A stretch of DNA of 21,833 bases from a virus, in IMG/VR virus record IMGVR_UViG_3300044961_000289, positions 1 to 21,833 of that record; one strand, given 5' to 3'. The notes under the pieces were generated by a model. It searched no databases. It was not told where the DNA came from and saw only the letters and a list, made by a program, of their open reading frames with translations. The position numbers and the translations under genes were made by a program. Shown here in pieces: positions 487 through 21,406 of the stretch; the stretch's first letter is position 1; every line of letters begins with the position of its first letter.

Positions 487-2143
487 GCGGTATATCCGGC
501 GGTTGGCGCAGGGTAAGATCGTGGCGTGCCGGTGGGTGCGGTTGGCGTGTGAGCGCCATCTGCGCGACCTGCGGACGGGACGGCGGCGCGGGCTGGTGTT
601 CGACCGGGAGGCGGCCAGCCATGCGATTGAGTTTTTTTCATTTCTGAGCCATAGCAAGGGCGAGTGGGCCGGGCAGCCGGTGCGCCTGGAGTTGTGGGAG
701 CAGGCGATTGTCTGGATTTTGTTTGGGTGGATGCGCCGCAAAACGGGGACGCGGCGATTCAACCAGGCATATATTGAGATTGCGAGGAAAAACGGCAAGA
801 GTTTACTAGCGTCGGGGATTGCGCTGTACATGCTGATCGGGGATGGGGAGCCGGGGGCAGAGGTGTATAGCGCGGCGACGAAGCGCGACCAGGCCAAAAT
901 CGTGTGGGATGAGGCGGCGCGCATGGTGCGCAAATCTCCCCAGTTGCGCGAATTTATCACGGTTCACAAAGATCGGATGTTTTTGCCGTTCGATACGGCA
1001 AGTAAATATGAACCGGTAGGGCGCGACGCGGACACGATGGACGGGCTGAATGTGCATTGTGCGATTGCCGACGAATTACATGCCCACCGCACAAGCGAGG
1101 TGTGGGATGTACTGGAAACGGGCATGGGCGCACGACGGCAGCCGCTGCTGTTGGCGATTACGACGGCTGGATTCAATCAGGCGTCGTTCTGCTACTCGAT
1201 GAGGAAATACGCAACGGCGGTGCTTGACCAGGTGATCCAGAACGACGCGTTTTTCACGATGATTTTCACGCTCGATGAGGATGACGATCCGTGGGATGAG
1301 CGCAATTGGATCAAGGCAAATCCGAATTTGGGCGTGTCGGTGTATTTGCCGGAACTGCGCAACCTGGCGGCGAAGGCAAAGGAGTTGCCGAGTTCGCTCA
1401 ATTCGTTTCTGGTCAAACGACTCAACATTTGGACGACCAGCGCCGAGCATTGGATTCATCCGGATCGGTGGAGAGCGTGCGCAGGATCGGTGGATGAGGC
1501 GGCGCTGGTGGGGCGTGTGTGCTACGGTGGGCTTGACCTGAGCAGCACGCAGGATTTGACAGCGCTAGTTTGGGTGTTTCCGCCGACATGGGACGACCCG
1601 TTGTATCGAGTGCTGTGCCGGTTTTGGGCGCCGGAGTCGGCGATTCAGGAGCGAAGCCGATCACAGCGTGTGCCGTATGATGTGTGGATGCGCAATGGGC
1701 TGATTACGCCGATTCCGGGCGAGGTGATCGACTACGCGTACATTTATGAGCAAATCGAGCAGGATGTTGCTCGCTTTCAGGTGAGAGAGATTGGGTACGA
1801 CCGCTATCAGGCGGCGGAGATTTATGTGCGGCTGGCGAATGCTGGACTGACGATGGTGCAGATTGCGCAGACGACGGGCGGCATGAATGGCGGGATGCGG
1901 GTGCTGGAGCATCTGATCGCAGGGCGACTGTTGGCGCATGGCGATCATGCGGTGCTGACGTGGAATATCCACAATGTGGTGGTATACCAGGACAGCAACG
2001 GCAACATCAAACCCGACAAACGCAAGAGTACGGAAAAAATTGACGGCGCAGTTGCGCTTGTGATGGCGTTGGGGCGGGCGACGCTGCACGATGCGGCGGC
2101 AAGCTCCAGCATGTACGATGATCCGGGAATTGTGGCGGCGTAG
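461..2143 (+). CDS. terL: Phage terminase large subunit
   Basis: This 560-residue protein is the packaging motor ATPase plus headful/cos nuclease that docks on the portal. A Walker A-like loop ARKNGKS lies at residues 108-114, in the variant form usual for terminases. A Walker B strand AIADE lies at residues 201-205, followed by a coupling segment LLAITTAG. The C-terminal RNase H-like nuclease is indicated by GLDLSSTQDL with Asp359, GYDRYQA with Asp447 and a final Asp528 in IDGAVALVMALG, giving the expected acidic cluster. Length is normal for the HK97-type Terminase_1 group. The start overlaps terS. The stop codon TAG overlaps the first base of a 16-bp palindrome. I am confident of the function; the exact subfamily is not established. 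Confidence 0.95.
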   Translation: MATAKHPVERYIRRLAQGKIVACRWVRLACERHLRDLRTGRRRGLVFDREAASHAIEFFSFLSHSKGEWAGQPVRLELWEQAIVWILFGWMRRKTGTRRFNQAYIEIARKNGKSLLASGIALYMLIGDGEPGAEVYSAATKRDQAKIVWDEAARMVRKSPQLREFITVHKDRMFLPFDTASKYEPVGRDADTMDGLNVHCAIADELHAHRTSEVWDVLETGMGARRQPLLLAITTAGFNQASFCYSMRKYATAVLDQVIQNDAFFTMIFTLDEDDDPWDERNWIKANPNLGVSVYLPELRNLAAKAKELPSSLNSFLVKRLNIWTTSAEHWIHPDRWRACAGSVDEAALVGRVCYGGLDLSSTQDLTALVWVFPPTWDDPLYRVLCRFWAPESAIQERSRSQRVPYDVWMRNGLITPIPGEVIDYAYIYEQIEQDVARFQVREIGYDRYQAAEIYVRLANAGLTMVQIAQTTGGMNGGMRVLEHLIAGRLLAHGDHAVLTWNIHNVVVYQDSNGNIKPDKRKSTEKIDGAVALVMALGRATLHDAAASSSMYDDPGIVAA

Positions 2144-2158
2144 TTTTCCTGGGAAAAC
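2143..2158. promoter_or_regulatory. 16-bp palindrome: operator or parS-like site
   Basis: The sequence GTTTTCC-TG-GGAAAAC is a perfect 7-bp inverted repeat with a 2-bp centre. It starts on the last base of the terL stop codon and ends 15 bases before the preferred start of the HTH gene. The identical 16-mer occurs, in the other orientation, as the core of the palindrome at 20719-20746. I saw no third full copy. Its size and half-site (GTTTT...AAAAC) resemble the 16-bp bacterial parS consensus TGTTTCACGTGAAACA in layout but not at the centre. It could be an autoregulatory operator for the HTH gene or a binding site for the ParB encoded in this window. Confidence 0.6.
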
Positions 2159-2173
2159 ATGGACGAAGGCGTG

Positions 2174-2410
2174 ATGAGCAAACTGACGAATCGACAGCGT
2201 GAGATTGTACGGCTGTTAGCAACGGGATACTCGCAGAAGGAGGCCGCCCGACGCCTTGGGATTGCCTACGGGACGGTGCGCAAGCACACGCTGGCGGCCA
2301 GGGAGCGCACGGCGTGCCGCTCGACAATGGAGATTGTGGTGTTGGCGGTTCAAGTTGTGGATGGAGAGTCTGCGCATGATAAAATGATGGAGCGCACCGA
2401 GGGTGCGTGA
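2174..2410 (+). CDS. Small LuxR-type helix-turn-helix regulator
   Basis: This 78-residue protein is essentially one LuxR/GerE-type DNA-binding domain. LTNRQREIVRLLATGYSQKE is followed by AARRLGIAYGTVRKH, matching the family pattern 'LT.rE.evl.llA.G.s.keiA..L.is..TVr.H'. No receiver or ligand-binding domain is attached, so it probably acts as a stand-alone transcription factor or, less likely, as a terminase-linked DNA-binding accessory. ATG 2174 is preferred because GAAGG lies four bases upstream; ATG 2159 would add five residues and abut the palindrome. A strong intrinsic terminator begins three bases after the stop, making this the last gene of a terS-terL-HTH unit. The palindrome just upstream suggests autoregulation (inference). 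Confidence 0.82.
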   Translation: MSKLTNRQREIVRLLATGYSQKEAARRLGIAYGTVRKHTLAARERTACRSTMEIVVLAVQVVDGESAHDKMMERTEGA

Positions 2411-15199: not shown

Positions 15200-17259
15200 C
15201 ACAACGACGCATTTGGCTGGATGTGCAGGCAGACGGCGGCACAACCGGCCCCGGTCCCATCATCGAGATTGAGTCATTTTCGAGCCGGGCGCGGTTGAAC
15301 CGTGCGGGAGACTGGTCGGCGACGCTGCCAGCGACAGACCCACGCGCCGCCGAACTGTTGGCGCCACGGCGCACGGTGCTGGCGTGGATGATGATCGGCA
15401 CGACACCGACGCTGATCGGCGGTGGGGTGATCGAGACGCTGACGACGCAGATCAGCGCCGATGGCGAATCGCTTGTGGTGTCGGGCCGCGACCTGATTGA
15501 GGAACTGGCGCGGCGCACGGTTGGCGAGGTGACGCTGCTCGACTCCGGGCTGGACGATTTTATTGACGATCATCTGCCAGCGGGCTGGGCGCATACGTTG
15601 CAGAGCGGCGCACCGACGTTCATGGCGCGCTTCAGCTATGAAAATCTGTTGGGGTGCCTGGCTTCGCTAGTGGACAAGCTGCCGCTGTGGTTCAGGCGGC
15701 GCACCGTGAGCGGCAATGTGCGCCATCTGGAGGTGCTGACGGCGCTGCCAGGCGATTATGTGCTGCTGGCGACCACGACCGGCGATCCGTTGGCGGTCGA
15801 GGCGAACGTTGACACGTGCCTGATCCGGGACATCACGGAAACCCGGCAAGCGACTGACGTGATCAGCCGCCTGTATGCGTTCGGCGCGGGCAACGCAGCG
15901 GCGCGGCTGACGATGGGTGCGGCCACGGTCTGGCCGGACGGGTCCAGCCTGGCGGCAACGTACACCACACTTGATGGCGATGTGCTGAGTTTCGACCGCA
16001 CGAGCAATCTCATCGTCAACCACACAACAGAATCGGCGTATGGCCGGGTGGAGCAGGCGGCGGCTTGGAAGGACATCAGCCCGCTTTCCAACACCGACGC
16101 CGATGTGATCGGCGCCGCCAATATGCTGGTAGCGGCAGCGGTGGAGTATCTGCGCCGCAACCGGGCGCCAGCTTACGAGTACAGCCTGAATGTGGCCGCG
16201 GTGCGAAAAACGCTGCTACCTGGCGATCTGATCTGGGTGCAGGCGCGACGCACGCGCGACGGAGCGACGCCGGTGGCGATCAACCGGGCGGTGCGTGTGT
16301 TGGAGGTGGCGACGACGGTCGATGTGGACGGTGAGCGCATCGACGGGCTGACGGTGGCGACAATCGATCACTGGCCGGTGACAGACACCGAAACGATAGT
16401 CGCGGAGATTCGCCAGTCGATGGTGATGGAGCGGCTGCCGCAACAGAACGCCTCAATCGATACGATTTCCTATCGTGAGCCAATCGACGATGATTACAGC
16501 GCCGATCTGCATTTCTGGATCGGCGAAGAAACCACCACGATCAATCAAATCCTGGTGCGCTTCCGGGTCGATCCGTTCCGCAGCACGGCCAAAACCATCG
16601 GCGGCACAGCGTCCGGATCGGTGGATATTCCCGATCACACGCACCAGGTGACGCTGAACTCGCACACGCACAGCGTGAGCATCAGCAGCCACACGCACGA
16701 CGTGCCAGATCATCAACATTACATCCTGATCAGCCCCGGCACTCCAACTTATGATATTGGATTCAGCGCGGCGGGCACAGCGGGTGGATTGTATTCGGAC
16801 GCCAGCAGCAGTGATTTTAATCTGCCAACCAATGCCGACAGCGGCGGCACGACGACGGCCAGCGGCGGCGGCACCAGCACGACCAGCGGCTCTGGCGGCG
16901 GCACGACCGTGACCAGCGCAGCGGGCGGCGGACAAACCGGATTGGCCGTAGACATTTCCTCGGCGCTGACGTTGCAATACGGCATATATCAGGACTCGCC
17001 GGGCAACACGTATGCGGCGACAGCATTGCAATGGCTCGTGAACGGCGTCGCTGCCACGGCGACACCGATCTCGATTGGCGATGGTTGGTATGCGCTTGAT
17101 ATCACACAGGATGTTGTTGGCGCAGATGGGCTGCGCCCGGCGCAGGCAGCAAATGTGGTACGCGTGCAGGTGAATCCTGCATCAAAAAGTGGAAAGCGCT
17201 GTCAGGTGACAGCGCAAATTCAGAGTAGAACGACGATTCAGGCGATTGCATATCGCTAG
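15196..17259 (+). CDS. Tail hub / tail-tip protein with HxH motifs
   Basis: This 687-residue protein is probably the baseplate hub or tail-associated protein. The first 380 residues resemble gp27/Gp37-like hub domains: IEIESFSSRARLNRAGDWSA, LLAPRRTVLAWMMIG, a VSGRDLIEELARR segment and LLPGDLIWVQARRTRD. Residues 480-509 carry four HxH pairs (His481/483, 490/492, 499/501, 506/508). In T4 gp37 and other phage fibres and spikes HxH motifs bind metal inside a trimer. A Gly/Ser/Thr-rich linker follows (about residues 548-580), then a C-terminal beta domain (LAVDISSALTLQYGIYQDSP to IQAIAYR). No enzyme motif for cell-wall cleavage is seen. The start overlaps the preceding stop (ATGA). Confidence 0.82.
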   Translation: MTQRRIWLDVQADGGTTGPGPIIEIESFSSRARLNRAGDWSATLPATDPRAAELLAPRRTVLAWMMIGTTPTLIGGGVIETLTTQISADGESLVVSGRDLIEELARRTVGEVTLLDSGLDDFIDDHLPAGWAHTLQSGAPTFMARFSYENLLGCLASLVDKLPLWFRRRTVSGNVRHLEVLTALPGDYVLLATTTGDPLAVEANVDTCLIRDITETRQATDVISRLYAFGAGNAAARLTMGAATVWPDGSSLAATYTTLDGDVLSFDRTSNLIVNHTTESAYGRVEQAAAWKDISPLSNTDADVIGAANMLVAAAVEYLRRNRAPAYEYSLNVAAVRKTLLPGDLIWVQARRTRDGATPVAINRAVRVLEVATTVDVDGERIDGLTVATIDHWPVTDTETIVAEIRQSMVMERLPQQNASIDTISYREPIDDDYSADLHFWIGEETTTINQILVRFRVDPFRSTAKTIGGTASGSVDIPDHTHQVTLNSHTHSVSISSHTHDVPDHQHYILISPGTPTYDIGFSAAGTAGGLYSDASSSDFNLPTNADSGGTTTASGGGTSTTSGSGGGTTVTSAAGGGQTGLAVDISSALTLQYGIYQDSPGNTYAATALQWLVNGVAATATPISIGDGWYALDITQDVVGADGLRPAQAANVVRVQVNPASKSGKRCQVTAQIQSRTTIQAIAYR
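17196..17215 (-). terminator. Hairpin ending the par operon inside the hub gene
   Basis: GCGCTGTCA (17196-17204) and TGACAGCGC (17207-17215) form a perfect 9-bp inverted repeat with GG between. Read on the minus strand the hairpin is followed by TTTCC and then TTTTT (from 17188 down), so it could be an intrinsic terminator for the convergent parB transcript, about 75 bases past its stop. It lies inside the last 65 bases of the hub gene. On the plus strand no T run follows. Confidence 0.4.
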
Positions 17260-17287: not shown

Positions 17288-18877
17288 TCAGCGCCTGATG
17301 TCAGGCTCATTCCCCATCTCCTCTTCAATGTGCTCCAGCACAAATCGCAACGACCGCACCGCATTTCCAATTTCTGCCTGATGCTGGCCGCACGCCACTG
17401 CATAGTCGCCGAGCGCATCAATGCACTGCGCAAACTGCACGTGCCAGTCCATCAACTGTTGGCGATCTACCAGCGGCGCCTGAGTTGTCGGAAACACCTC
17501 GACCAACGAAGCGCTGCGTTGCTCCTGCACGCTGGCGGTCCGGCGCCGCAACTCCTCGTCGAGCAACTGCGATAGAAACAGATCGACGATTCCGGCGCCG
17601 CTGCATTTTTCCTTCAGATAGATCAGTGTGGGCCACCACAGCGGCGCAAATGTCCACTCTCGGCGCAACTGTTTCAGGTCCGCCAACGTCGGCTGCTTCT
17701 CCGTCAACCATGCGGCGAACGCAGCGGCAACCTGGTCCCTGGTTGCCATCTGCGGCGTTGGCGTTTGCGGCGCCGGTGCATAGCTGGTCACAAAGGTAGT
17801 CGTCTTGGGCATCTGCCGATCATGCACCGCCAGCCGGAGCGCTTGCTTCAGGTCGCCCTCGCGCCATTGATGCGTCTCGCCCCGTTCTGCCGTCAGCCAT
17901 GCGTTGATTTCCTGCCAAAGCGTGCCGTTGCTGTGCGCAGGATTCTCCGGCAGATCACGATTTTTCCAACGCACGTCCAGGAATCGCTCCGCCAGCGCAA
18001 TCAACTCATTTTCGGACAGCAACGGCTTGCGCTTTTCCGCTACCACCTGCATCGCCTGGCGGCGCATCTCGATCCGAAATTGCACCTGCGATTCGACATT
18101 GCTCGCCGTCTGCCCCATCAGATAGGCAATGGGGAAATCTGCCCACATGCCGTCGAACTCCAACAGCGGCAGCAGCGCCCGCCCGTGCCGCTCCGTGATC
18201 CGACCGTCCAAAATCGCCTGCTGATACTCATCCGGCAGCTGCAACAGCCGCACCAGGTTGGCGGCTGCGCCCCTACTTTTACCAAAGAGCTTCCCGGCCT
18301 GCTCATAGGTCATGCCGAATTCCTTGCGCGCCCGCTCTATCGCAATCGCCTCCTCAATCGCCGACAGGTCTCGCCGCTGCGCATTCTCCGTAGTCGCATG
18401 GCTCCACATCTCCTGATCGGTAAGCGGGCGCAGCAGCACCGGCATCGCCGCATAATCGGCGGCGTCATACTCCGGGCAATCCTCGATGCGCTCGTAGCCC
18501 GACTCCGGGAACACTGCCGCCACGCCGCGCGCCAGCATCAGGAATGCCAGCCGCCGACTGTGCCCGAACGCCAGTTCGACCACGACCTCATTGCCTGCCA
18601 GCAGATCGACAACGGCGGCCTCATCCTCATACACATCGTCCGGGTAGGCGTAGCCATCCGCATAGCGCACCAGGCGCCCAACCGGTAGCTGTTGCAGCCC
18701 TTTTGTATCAGGCAGCGACGGCGCCATGCGCACAATGCTCGCCGCCAGATTCATTATATGCCCGACAACATTGCGCTGCCGGGTCTGGTAGGGGTTGTCC
18801 TCCAGCTTCGACAGCGGCACATAGTAGATCGTCGCCTGCTGGCTCAGGTCGTTCGCCGTGCGCAGCAAATTCAGCAT
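17288..18877 (-). CDS. parB: ParB-family partition / CTPase protein, long form
   Basis: This 529-residue protein begins with a ParB/sulfiredoxin-like domain: IYYVPLSKLEDNPYQTRQ (residues 17-34), a GHSRR motif at 105-109 (the GERR-type CTP-binding box), and TTENAQRRDLSAIEEAIA (162-179), the very conserved ENxQRxDLxPxEEA box. A helix-turn-helix follows (YEQAGKLFGKSRGAAANLVR, 191-210) with RLLQLP after it. The C-terminal 290 residues are unfamiliar and make it much longer than typical 300-residue ParB proteins. ATG 18877 follows GAGGAGGAAT and overlaps the end of parA by 7 bases, so the pair is coupled. With ParA it probably segregates the element as a plasmid; a role as a phage transcription regulator is the alternative. 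Confidence 0.88.
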   Translation of the reverse strand: MLNLLRTANDLSQQATIYYVPLSKLEDNPYQTRQRNVVGHIMNLAASIVRMAPSLPDTKGLQQLPVGRLVRYADGYAYPDDVYEDEAAVVDLLAGNEVVVELAFGHSRRLAFLMLARGVAAVFPESGYERIEDCPEYDAADYAAMPVLLRPLTDQEMWSHATTENAQRRDLSAIEEAIAIERARKEFGMTYEQAGKLFGKSRGAAANLVRLLQLPDEYQQAILDGRITERHGRALLPLLEFDGMWADFPIAYLMGQTASNVESQVQFRIEMRRQAMQVVAEKRKPLLSENELIALAERFLDVRWKNRDLPENPAHSNGTLWQEINAWLTAERGETHQWREGDLKQALRLAVHDRQMPKTTTFVTSYAPAPQTPTPQMATRDQVAAAFAAWLTEKQPTLADLKQLRREWTFAPLWWPTLIYLKEKCSGAGIVDLFLSQLLDEELRRRTASVQEQRSASLVEVFPTTQAPLVDRQQLMDWHVQFAQCIDALGDYAVACGQHQAEIGNAVRSLRFVLEHIEEEMGNEPDIRR

Positions 18878-19593
18878 GATTCCTCCTCCCCGGTCAGTTT
18901 TTGCATGACGGCTATCGCCACATCCCAGTATAGCGCCCGCAGTTGCTCATCGGCGTCCACCCCACGCCGATACGGCACCACGCCCAAGATCGGCATCTCC
19001 TCATCAATGCGGAGCAAATTCGACCGGTGCAGCACCGTCGCCCCCTGCACCTTCGTCACCACGGCGCCCAACACCTGCGGCGCCTGACCCAGCTCGCAGC
19101 GCAGCCAATCCACCATGCTGATGATCCGGCGCATCCCCTCAATGGCGTCGTGCTCCGGGTCCAGCACGACGAGCACATAGTCGGCGGCGACCAGCGCATT
19201 CACTGTCAGGATGTTGGCTGCCGGCGCGCAGTCGATCAACACGGGCCGGTCGCCGGCGTCGCGCAGTGCGTTCGCCAGGAACCGATGATTCGGCGCCTTC
19301 GCCTGGATCGCTGCGCCCGCATCCTCCAGCTTGATGTCCGTGCCAACCAGCTGCACGGCAGCGCCCTCGCCAACCATCTGCACGGCGACCGCCAGCGCCG
19401 TGCGCCGCAGCAGCACATCCGCCACACCGTTGGCATGGTGGATCGTGCCGCCAAACATGCGCGTCAGGTTGCCCTGCGGGTCGAGATCGATTGCCATCGG
19501 CGTATAGCCCTGCGTCGCCCAATGCTGCGCCAGCCAATAGGCGGTGATGGTCTTGCCCACCCCGCCCTTGTGGTTGCAGATCGCCACCTTCAT
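18871..19593 (-). CDS. parA: ParA-family partition ATPase
   Basis: This 240-residue protein is a deviant-Walker ATPase. MKVAICNHKGGVGKTITAYW holds the P-loop KGGVGKT at residues 9-15 including the signature Lys9. AIDLDPQGNL (about 34-43) is the A' motif, and PVLIDCAPAANILTVNALVA is the Walker B region. VLVVLDPEHDAIEGM follows as in Soj/ParA proteins. The small size without an N-terminal HTH is like chromosomal Soj or type Ib ParA, so it should not repress its own operon unaided. ATG 19593 is chosen because AAGGAGG lies upstream and the P-loop usually begins within 10 residues of the start. It is cotranscribed with parB. Confidence 0.92.
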   Translation of the reverse strand: MKVAICNHKGGVGKTITAYWLAQHWATQGYTPMAIDLDPQGNLTRMFGGTIHHANGVADVLLRRTALAVAVQMVGEGAAVQLVGTDIKLEDAGAAIQAKAPNHRFLANALRDAGDRPVLIDCAPAANILTVNALVAADYVLVVLDPEHDAIEGMRRIISMVDWLRCELGQAPQVLGAVVTKVQGATVLHRSNLLRIDEEMPILGVVPYRRGVDADEQLRALYWDVAIAVMQKLTGEEESC

Positions 19594-19613: not shown

Positions 19614-19961
19614 TCAAACGCCATCCTCCTGGATGCACTCAATTCCGCCAGATGCACGCACAACCCGATACTCGCCAATCATTTGCGGATATTTGCGCAC
19701 CACCGCCTTGAATCCGATGCGGTGCGGGCTGTTGCCGCCACCTGCCAAAGAGAAAGCGCCGACATCATTTGGCGTTGCCGGTTGCATCCGAATGCGTTTC
19801 AGTTCCGGCTCGATCTGCACGCGCACTTTTGCCGGATCGCCGAGCAGCGTCACCGCCGCATGAGATAGCGTCATCTGCCCGGATTCATACACTTTGGCGG
19901 TTGGCTCCTTCGGCTGGCGCCCGCCGCCTTGACTCTCTGGCTTAATCTGAATCCACGCCAT
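19614..19961 (-). CDS. Hypothetical protein upstream of parA
   Basis: This 115-residue protein reads MAWIQIKPESQGGGRQPKEP at its start, with a central GQMTLSHAAVTLLGDPAKVR segment and a later NDVGAFSLAGGGNSPHRIGF. The middle resembles AbrB-like or 'start-with-swapped hairpin' DNA-binding pieces only vaguely (VYESGQMTLSHAAV), and I do not assign a family. ATG 19961 is chosen because AAAGGA lies about ten bases upstream; it overlaps the end of the preceding gene by 20 bases. It ends 20 bases before parA starts, so it belongs to the par operon. Confidence 0.65.
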   Translation of the reverse strand: MAWIQIKPESQGGGRQPKEPTAKVYESGQMTLSHAAVTLLGDPAKVRVQIEPELKRIRMQPATPNDVGAFSLAGGGNSPHRIGFKAVVRKYPQMIGEYRVVRASGGIECIQEDGV

Positions 19962-20196
19962 CTTCGATTCCTTTCTCAAATTCCAGGTAGGCCGCATGAA
20001 TCAGTTGCGTCGCCACGTCCAGCGGCGACAGCGACGGATTGTTCGTCACGCCGCGCCTGACCATCGTCAGGATGCGGAGTTCCCGCGCCGTGTCCTTGTC
20101 CAGTTGCAGGCGCCGGACCAAAGCGCCTGCACCGCGTCGAGCGCCGCCCCGATTATCATCGGTGCGGCGCTTTGGGCGGGGTCCGCCGGATGTCAT
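19942..20196 (-). CDS. Small basic hypothetical protein, possible DNA binder
   Basis: This 84-residue protein has a very basic start (PRPKRRTDDNRGGARRGAGA) and a helical rest (LVRRLQLDKDTARELRILTM, then LSPLDVATQLIHAAYLEFEK), ending acidic. A basic tail with a short strand and two helices could be ribbon-helix-helix-like and so might be a repressor or a partition adaptor, but no signature confirms this. Its ATG 20196 overlaps the preceding stop (ATGA) and its 3' end overlaps the next gene, so it is translationally coupled in the operon. Confidence 0.6.
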   Translation of the reverse strand: MTSGGPRPKRRTDDNRGGARRGAGALVRRLQLDKDTARELRILTMVRRGVTNNPSLSPLDVATQLIHAAYLEFEKGIEDGVDSD

Positions 20197-20591
20197 GCAC
20201 GGCTCAGTTGGTGCAGTCGGTTCAACTCGGTGTCCAGTTCGGCAAGAGACTCTGCGACGACGAACCGCTTATCAATGTGCCGGTAGTAGCGATTCTCGGT
20301 GTCGTAAGCCACTGGACCAGTCCACTGAATTTTTTCAATCATCGTTGCCCATTCTTCTCTGGATTTGTCGTTTGAAATGACGAGCACTCCGCCAGCCATT
20401 TTGATCGCTTGGCTGCATGCTGCTACCTCCTGCGCAGATGCACAGCTTTTCTGCCAACCAGCACCAGGAATGTATTTCATTCCGGCAGCCTTGAGCGCCG
20501 CCAACGTCGCCTCATCCGGCTTCAGTTCGGTTTTGATTGATGTCGTTCGTCCGAAGTGCGCCTGTGTTACATTGTTCCGATACGTAATCAT
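20193..20591 (-). CDS. Hypothetical protein, first gene of the par operon
   Basis: This 132-residue protein begins MITYRNNVTQAHFGRTTSIK and contains LAALKAAGMKYIPGAGWQKS, a pattern like the 'LkaaGfrw....W' segment of some phage and plasmid proteins of unknown role, and a later GGVLVISNDKSREEWATMIE. The C-terminal part is helical (ESLAELDTELNRLHQL). ATG 20591 has AAGGAG just upstream, a typical leading gene site, and lies about 50 bases after the predicted transcription start. I do not recognise the family. Base composition here is more AT-rich than in the late operon. Confidence 0.62.
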   Translation of the reverse strand: MITYRNNVTQAHFGRTTSIKTELKPDEATLAALKAAGMKYIPGAGWQKSCASAQEVAACSQAIKMAGGVLVISNDKSREEWATMIEKIQWTGPVAYDTENRYYRHIDKRFVVAESLAELDTELNRLHQLSRA

Positions 20592-20640: not shown

Positions 20641-20669
20641 TTGATTGAATTATATCACAAATCAATCAA
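20641..20669. promoter_or_regulatory. Inverted repeat flanking the par operon -10 box
   Basis: TTGATTGA (20641-20648) and TCAATCAA (20662-20669) form a perfect 8-bp inverted repeat with 13 bases between, and the -10 element lies inside it. A protein bound here would cover the promoter, so it is a good repressor operator candidate. The operon's own small basic protein, ParB or the LuxR-type protein could bind it. Confidence 0.5.
20649..20657 (-). promoter_or_regulatory. Extended -10 promoter of the par operon
   Basis: Read on the minus strand, TGATATAAT is a perfect extended -10 (TGnTATAAT). No good -35 hexamer is found at 17-base spacing, which is common for extended -10 promoters. The predicted transcription start is near 20642, leaving a leader of about 50 bases before ATG 20591. 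It should drive the five-gene operon through parB. Confidence 0.65.
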
Positions 20670-20718
20670 AAGCGTATCCCCCCAATTTGCCGATTTACCT
20701 TAAAGTTTGTAGCCATTC

Positions 20719-20746
20719 GATGTTGTTTTCCCAGGAAAACAACATC
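20719..20746. promoter_or_regulatory. 28-bp perfect palindrome: parS-like or operator
   Basis: The arm GATGTTGTTTTCC (20719-20731) is perfectly mirrored across a CA centre (20732-20733) to 20746: thirteen paired bases with no loop. Its 16-bp core equals the palindrome at 2143-2158 in reverse orientation. It lies about 60 bases upstream of the par operon promoter. The two-base centre makes a strong RNA hairpin unlikely and no T run follows, so protein binding is the better explanation. Candidate binders are the ParB and the LuxR-type HTH protein of this window. Confidence 0.7.
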
Positions 20747-20945
20747 AATCATACTCCTGCCACTGCCCGTCGATCTGGCGTTCGGCGTCGGCTTGGCGCT
20801 GCGCCTCCACCAGCAGCCGGGCGCGCTGGTCGGCGACGCTCGGCGCGTCGGCGGGTGCGCAGATCGTGGTACAGCCGGACGGCAGCGGGGAGATTATGGA
20901 GCCGCCACCCGTGCCGCCGATTCCGCCGGAATAGTTGCGCAGCAC
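20745..20945 (-). CDS. Coding-like remnant or small protein, start uncertain
   Basis: The minus-strand frame ending at TGA 20747-20745 has strongly coding-like codons (many GGC, ATC, GCC, GAC, CAG) and encodes LRNYSGGIGGTGGGSIISPL, then PSGCTTICAPADAPSVADQR and a charged helix ending QIDGQWQEYD. The only starts after the terminator hairpin are GTG 20945 and TTG codons just before it, none with a Shine-Dalgarno. The frame also stays open upstream through the hairpin to a GTG at 21014. It may be the tail of a truncated gene or a small virion or lysis protein. Its stop codon lies within the 28-bp palindrome. I do not recognise it. Confidence 0.35.
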   Translation of the reverse strand: MLRNYSGGIGGTGGGSIISPLPSGCTTICAPADAPSVADQRARLLVEAQRQADAERQIDGQWQEYD

Positions 20946-20949
20946 CAAC

Positions 20950-20993
20950 AACAAAAAGCGCCCGATCCACTGCTGGATCGGGCGCTTTTTGTT
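20950..20993. terminator. Perfect 20-bp stem, bidirectional terminator
   Basis: AACAAAAAGCGCCCGATCCA (20950-20969) pairs perfectly with the complementary arm 20974-20993 around a CTGC loop. The GC-rich centre is flanked by five A on one side and five T on the other, so it works as an intrinsic terminator on both strands. On the minus strand it directly follows the stop of the AAA+ remnant. Confidence 0.88.
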
Positions 20994-21406
20994 AGACCCC
21001 TTCCGAGGATTCACAAAACAAACCTAAATACGGCAGCACGATGCGCAGGCAGCGACGCACCAGTGCGTCGGCCAGCGGCCGGCTGGCGTTGGACGTGATC
21101 CAGAAGATCACGTTGCTACCGAAGCGCCCGTGGACATGCCCGGTGCTGTCCACGACCAGGCGCTCCTCGAGCGCCGCCAGCAAAAGCCCGTCAGCGACCG
21201 GGCGTGTTTTGTCCCACTCGTCGAGCAGGACAATTGTCGGTTTGCCGTCCGCACCCAGTTCGGCGGCGCGCAGCAACACGCCCGCCGCGTACACGCGGGA
21301 GGCGTCCCGCTCGACGAATCCGGCGAGGTTGACCCCGCGGATCGCACGCCATGAGGAAATTCTGTAGCTCCATGCCCAGGTCGATCCCGCTGCTGTCGTC
21401 GCTCAT
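20992..21406 (-). pseudogene. Decayed MoxR-like AAA+ ATPase
   Basis: ATG 21406 has a good GGAGG upstream and starts MSDDSSGIDLGMELQNFLMA. The recognisable ATPase then continues in another frame: GVNLAGFVERDASRVYAAGV, a Walker B KPTIVLLDEWDKTRP, LLLAALEERLV, and sensor-like FWITSNASRPLADALVRRCL. A +1 shift is needed near 21345. Even with it there is no P-loop, and the protein ends soon after RIVLPY with an unrelated-looking tail, whereas MoxR-type ATPases usually exceed 250 residues. The simplest reading is an internal deletion that removed the Walker A region plus a 3' truncation. A sequencing error would explain the frame but not the missing P-loop. Confidence 0.7.

Follow-up and report, generated by a model that had tools for sequence, protein, structure and literature searches.

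The canonical chromosomal ParB-parS systems combine a 16-bp palindromic site, TGTTTCACGTGAAACA, located in or beside the par locus, with a parA-parB pair and a ParB carrying an HTH_ParB domain. The reading of such sites is described for Caulobacter ParB, in which R173 contacts G1, and for Noc, whose site ATTTCCCGGGAAAT is recognized at A1 by Q173 and at C6 by R201, the latter contacting the C6:G-6 pair (Jalal et al. 2020, PMC7383237). K179 and K184 aided Noc-type binding in a test protein. R173 and G201 are reported to be invariant among the present-day ParB orthologues surveyed in that study, in which the R/R intermediates were lab-built only (PMC7383237). The NBS of Noc in Bacillus is GGATATTTCCCGGGAAATATCC (PMC7383237, PMC8429893), and its copies are dispersed on the replicon. 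Among phages, mycobacteriophage RedRock has a parABS system that serves an extrachromosomal prophage and comprises a ParA, a ParB and multiple parS loci, each made up of clustered 8-bp direct repeats (PMC7157519).

The phage DNA analyzed here (the window, meaning the whole stretch of 21,833 bases, a single IMG/VR virus record) carries a 28-bp perfect palindrome, GATGTTGTTTTCC-CA-GGAAAACAACATC, with 13 pairs on each side of a CA centre, as a preliminary description of this DNA had read it (Table 1). One of 200 dinucleotide-shuffled versions of the window contained an arm of 13 with a loop no longer than 2 bases, which makes the palindrome on its own rare yet not conclusive. The outer six bases on each side are not common to the copies in relatives, and the inner 16 bp, GTTTTCCYRGGAAAAC, form the functional unit. 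This core lies right behind the stop codon of the gene ending in '...QIDGQWQEYD', upstream of the par operon, and occupies the same syntenic position in a complete related phage, G003. The identical 16-mer recurs on the opposite strand as a second copy, absent from the preliminary description, and the gene for a small HTH protein starts 15 bases past it. In shuffles of the window, 0 core matches with up to three mismatches were expected. The second copy of the 16-bp core, together with exact copies across related phages, places the palindrome beyond chance, while its outer 6-bp arms remain a feature that the parS reading does not explain.

Table 1. Location of the candidate sites and neighbouring genes in the window, and of the second palindrome at sister ParB loci
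Feature	Position	Strand	Basis or remark
Second exact core copy, GTTTTCCTGGGAAAAC	2143..2158	.	Follows the terL stop codon and precedes the small HTH gene
78-aa GerE/LuxR-type HTH protein (rejected alternative binder)	2174..2410	+	PF00196, E=6e-10
parB, 529 aa, HTH_ParB domain (proposed binder)	17288..18877	-	Pfam PF17762, E=5e-20; best PDB matches Spo0J and Noc
parA (Walker-type ATPase), immediately before parB	18871..19593	-	PF13614, E=1e-29
127-aa par-operon protein	19614..19997	-	Conserved in G002 and G004
84-aa par-operon protein	19942..20196	-	Conserved in G004
132-aa protein, first gene of the putative par operon	20193..20591	-	
28-bp perfect palindrome	20719..20746	.	Sequence; 1/200 shuffles
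16-bp core, GTTTTCCCAGGAAAAC, candidate ParB nucleation site (Noc-type parS)	20725..20740	.	Copies, covariation, synteny
Gene whose stop codon abuts the palindrome	20745..21014	-	C-terminus homologous to a G003 gene ending in '...QIDGEWQEYD'
GTTTGCRYGCAAAC at the parB 5' end (sister loci)	L342 996; L343 9953; L344 4307; L345 9953; L346 9786; L349 855		

The par promoter that had been placed about 60 bases from the palindrome was not recovered by the consensus scan; the minus strand shows an extended -10-like TGATATAAT, with its TATAAT at 20649-20654. Three further features of this region were observed. At about 20660-20685 (minus strand), upstream of the par operon, the window carries AATTGGGGGGATACGCT, which is also present in G010 (15550-17000) before a different, RHH-like gene and is a possible promoter or origin element. 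The longest inverted repeat of the window (20950-20993; 20-bp arms, 4-bp loop, A and T runs at its ends) resembles a bidirectional terminator, though the consensus scan made no call there. An AAA-type ATPase ORF (20992-21406, minus strand) is apparently split over two frames near 21290-21400, which appears to be a frameshift or an assembly error.

A broad, degenerate form of the core, GTTTTCCNNGGAAAAC, scanned against 2.9 million viral contigs, gave mostly chance matches, among which the contigs with relatives of the window proteins stood out. Exact patterns were used next. With these, every contig of the viral collection with more than one copy was a member of the phage group. Exact GTTTTCCYRGGAAAAC was found in 18 copies in seven records (the window, which is G000, and G001, G002, G003, G004, G010 and G015), and none of the seven carried a copy altered at one or two bases. 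Protein identity among these phages is often just 40 to 67%, so the exactness of the 18 copies indicates that the fixed bases are under strong constraint. Relatives have two to seven sites per genome, spread around it (G003 and G010 are complete circles with identical 127-bp ends). Complete relatives measure about 33 kb, so roughly 11 kb may be lacking from the window. The copies fall within or close to the terL-portal interval, next to the par genes in phages that have them, and in other gaps, such as that before an HK97-gp10-like tail gene. Convergent gaps hold at least three of the sites, including G002 13304 and G003 15167 (just 3' of parB), and an operator would make little sense there. 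The idea that the terL copy is a packaging site was rejected, as it leaves the copies at parB unaccounted for. Mutual exclusion of parABS and integrase, as described for cluster A mycobacteriophages, was not upheld either: the complete G003 has both parAB and a tyrosine recombinase. In G003, a direct repeat, GATTGATGTTTTCCCAGGAAAACA, which includes the preceding stop codon, lies on either side of parAB (L340 9262 and 11787; G003 ~15167 and 17692) and could allow loss of the par module. Two sites of G015 (L148, 1981 and 8046) are located directly behind a terminator-like CGCCCTTTTT run and have flanking bases in common.

The specificity residues of the ParBs were assigned by alignment, in Caulobacter numbering. 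The window ParB has R173, L179, Q184, R201, H202 and R204 (R201 and H202 being its own residues 230 and 231) and aligns with Noc over the HTH without a gap ('TERHGRALL' versus 'TERHARALI'). Used alone as a query, it found no relative in the viral collection; a ParB alignment used as the query did find relatives. Searches of phage and plasmid collections gave distant ParB matches only, nearly all confined to the HTH region. The ParB of G003, whose ParA is 80% identical to that of the window, has the same residues at 173, 179, 184 and 201 (R, L, Q and R), and that of G004 has K173, K179, R184 and R201. The phage core TTTCCYRGGAAA, which has C at position 6, is equal to the NBS core TTTCCCGGGAAA and unlike canonical parS. 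Palindromes with this core were present in all six loci encoding an R201-H202 ParB, whereas the other 16 ParB loci had none. Assuming independence, this gives P = 1.3e-5, an overstatement because the six ParB-site pairs have common ancestry. The site adjoins the par locus in every genome with an R201-H202 ParB; the conservation of the 16-bp core beside parB, proposed earlier as a check, was thus found. One copy is located at the 5' end of parB in G004, G425 and L341, and at its 3' end in G003 and G426. A common N-terminal peptide resembling TPxILxxVL was observed at L139 6280-8040, L135 7168-8919 and L142 9511-9864 and 11002-11934, its carriers being two DUF3102 proteins, a ParB, and a ParB-like protein whose HTH is of another kind.

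The site changes together with residue 173 as well. Where this residue is Q, position 1 of the site is A, as in Noc. Three distant phages retrieved with the ParB alignment provided an independent test. G425 (complete, with a 144-bp end repeat) encodes a Q173/R201 ParB and has seven copies of TATTTCCYRGGAAATA over 57 kb; G426, also complete, encodes such a ParB and has four copies of TATTTCCCGGGAAATR, with the Noc site itself inside; and L341, again with Q173/R201, has at least four copies of TATTTCCYRGGAAATA or TATTTCCCGGGAAATR (A1, C6). The chance expectation for such copies is about 0.013 per 57-kb genome. The window ParB itself runs against the published code at one position, since its R173 is paired with T1, whereas R173 reads G1 in Caulobacter ParB. 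We speculate that R173 of the window ParB may contact the invariant G one base farther out. Overall, the site sequence covaries with the reading residues of ParB, which points to ParB as the binder; docking of the phage ParB on the 16-bp site is strongly supported by this covariation, and the earlier proposal of a non-canonical parS gains support from it.

An unbiased search for any repeated palindrome, given no motif, recovered the phage sites and a second palindrome. In a sister group of ParBs with R201-Q202 ('SERQ'), six of six loci had GTTTGCRYGCAAAC, one copy of it standing at the parB 5' end; the TTTCCYRGGAAA core was present in none of the six. The locus L348, with R201-S202, also has GTTTGCRYGCAAAC, for which the background was 5 occurrences in 3.95 Mb. 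Base 6 is C throughout with R201, base 1 is G with R173, and base 5 changes from C to G as residue 202 changes from H to Q. Residue 202 is linked to base 5 by this correlation; we know of no published contact between the two. The phage ParBs might then form a natural DNA-reading series with a modular code (201 for base 6, 202 for base 5 and 173 for the outer bases), several of them, lacking ParA, acting from dispersed sites through clamps that coat, silence or organize the genome rather than partition it. We put this forward tentatively, at somewhat less than even odds.

Compared with the described systems, the locus is closest in its site to Noc/NBS of Bacillus, with which it has in common the core, reading via R201 (R186 in Noc) and copies dispersed on the replicon. 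It differs in that the outer base of the phage site is T and not A, so that ATTTCCCGGGAAAT is absent from the window (it occurs exactly in G426), and in that the centre is mostly CA/TG. Of Q173, K179, K184 and R201, the window ParB has R201 only. Noc has no ParA partner, whereas in the window ParA is adjacent; none was detected in G004, G425 and G426. With canonical ParB-parS the window shares the 16-bp palindrome, the HTH_ParB protein, the gene pair and the location of the site, but only 10 of 16 bases match, C6/R201 replace A6/G201 and the phage sites are spread over the genome; TGTTTCACGTGAAACA with an R173/G201 ParB characterizes a chromosomal subfamily and not all ParABS. The features of ParABS more generally are found: a ParB-family protein on the same replicon, a ParA paired with it, and a palindromic site of about 16 bp that lies within or beside the par locus and is conserved together with parB. 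KorB of plasmid RK2 is likewise a ParB-family protein with 16-bp operators (OB), several of them upstream of genes, but the phage site differs in sequence and a KorA partner was not seen in the phage. RedRock is similar in its phage ParA and ParB, multiple parS loci and extrachromosomal prophage, whereas the sites here are single 16-bp palindromes. The sop system of phage N15 is alike in having several separate centromere sites on a phage-plasmid.

Binders other than the phage ParB were considered. The preliminary description offered an operator for the LuxR-type protein as the alternative; the site would then serve autoregulation of the small GerE/LuxR-type HTH protein whose gene follows the second copy. 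A copy does lie directly before the HTH gene in G000, G001, G002, G004 and G010, and GerE proteins can bind palindromes of such size. However, no GerE domain was found in the complete G003, with its four sites, or in the partial G015, with three; G014 lacks the site although it has a related HTH gene; the HTH protein of G002 is 39% identical, with another recognition helix, at the same site; and copies in convergent gaps (the G002 and G003 sites given above) fit an operator poorly. The four sites of the complete G003 in particular make a LuxR-type binder very improbable. A host protein, reading a host parS or acting as a host regulator, would account for the sites of G010 and G002, in which no ParB of the cognate type was detected. 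The closest TerL relatives in genomes are in Chloroflexota MAGs, at most 55% identical, so the assignment of a Chloroflexota host is tentative. The exact phage motif was found in 1 of 400 Chloroflexota genomes, which is at chance level (this sole match, L308, is beside a recombinase-like gene), and most of the Chloroflexota chromosomal ParBs examined have R173/G201, one of them with TGTTTCACGTGAAACA nearby. The host ParB is thus not a likely reader, and we give a host binder only a very small chance.

Least probable of all, to the point of being barely credible, is a transcription terminator or RNA hairpin element. The 28-mer folds as RNA at -14.7 kcal/mol, but a GC-rich stem followed by a T run, as in intrinsic terminators, was not found at the palindrome, the terminator scan made no call there (in agreement with the earlier remark that a T run is lacking), the second copy folds no better than shuffles (z = 0.53), conservation is limited to the 16-bp DNA core, and there was no Rfam match. 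More weight belongs to the idea that ParB does read the site but serves chiefly for gene control or genome organization, by KorB-like long-range repression or in the manner of Noc, and not for partition. The sites are dispersed (seven over 57 kb in G425) and mostly in gaps just before genes; G004, G425 and G426 have ParB and sites, and no ParA was detected in these three or in the examined part of L341. KorB, a ParB relative, silences promoters from its 16-bp OB sites (PMC11790492). Against this, the window and G003 encode ParA (PF13614) next to ParB, and the sites in convergent gaps have no promoter to control. Overall we consider such a main role less likely than not, although in the phages with no ParA detected, partition and a KorB- or Noc-like role are equally probable.

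We therefore favor, with a probability of about 90%, the reading that the palindrome carries a parS for the phage's own ParB, read by a Noc-type code, and that a ParB clamp together with ParA would hold a plasmid-like prophage. The window pair would then be a phage ParB-parS system in which base 6 is read as by Noc and the sites are several and dispersed, a parS assignment that the sequence comparisons support. Under this model, a ParB dimer would dock on the 16-bp palindromic parS, using the Noc-type code (C6 read by R201) in place of the canonical one (A6, G201), a substitution by which the phage system would stay apart from that of its host. By analogy with ParB, Noc and KorB, the docked protein would bind CTP and form a closed clamp that slides onto adjacent DNA, and the neighbouring ParA would use the ParB-DNA complex to hold and distribute the plasmid-like prophage. 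ParB binding, the CTP clamp and partition are thus predicted from known relatives. The CTP-binding boxes had been described as kept; the ENAQR motif is indeed intact, but GxRR is replaced by GHSRR. With at least two sites here, one by the par operon and one where terL meets the HTH gene, and two to seven in relatives, ParB is probably loaded at many places.

Two relatives that have sites but no detected cognate ParB count against this reading. G010, which is complete by its 127-bp end repeat and has two sites, lacks the par-flanking sites and has kept the two remote ones; G002 has three sites and is apparently near-complete, its ends abutting HNH and terS. These two phages may have lost par recently, or may use the ParB of another element. 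Such sites without a cognate ParB suggest borrowing of a foreign ParB, as SGI1 borrows that of IncC plasmids (PMC10954446). The phage system appears insulated from a Chloroflexota-type host. In nature, these phages appear to use R173/R201, K173/R201 and Q173/R201 combinations with matching sites, and these natural R201 variants offer a test set for the evolution of ParB specificity and for the separation of phage and host partition.
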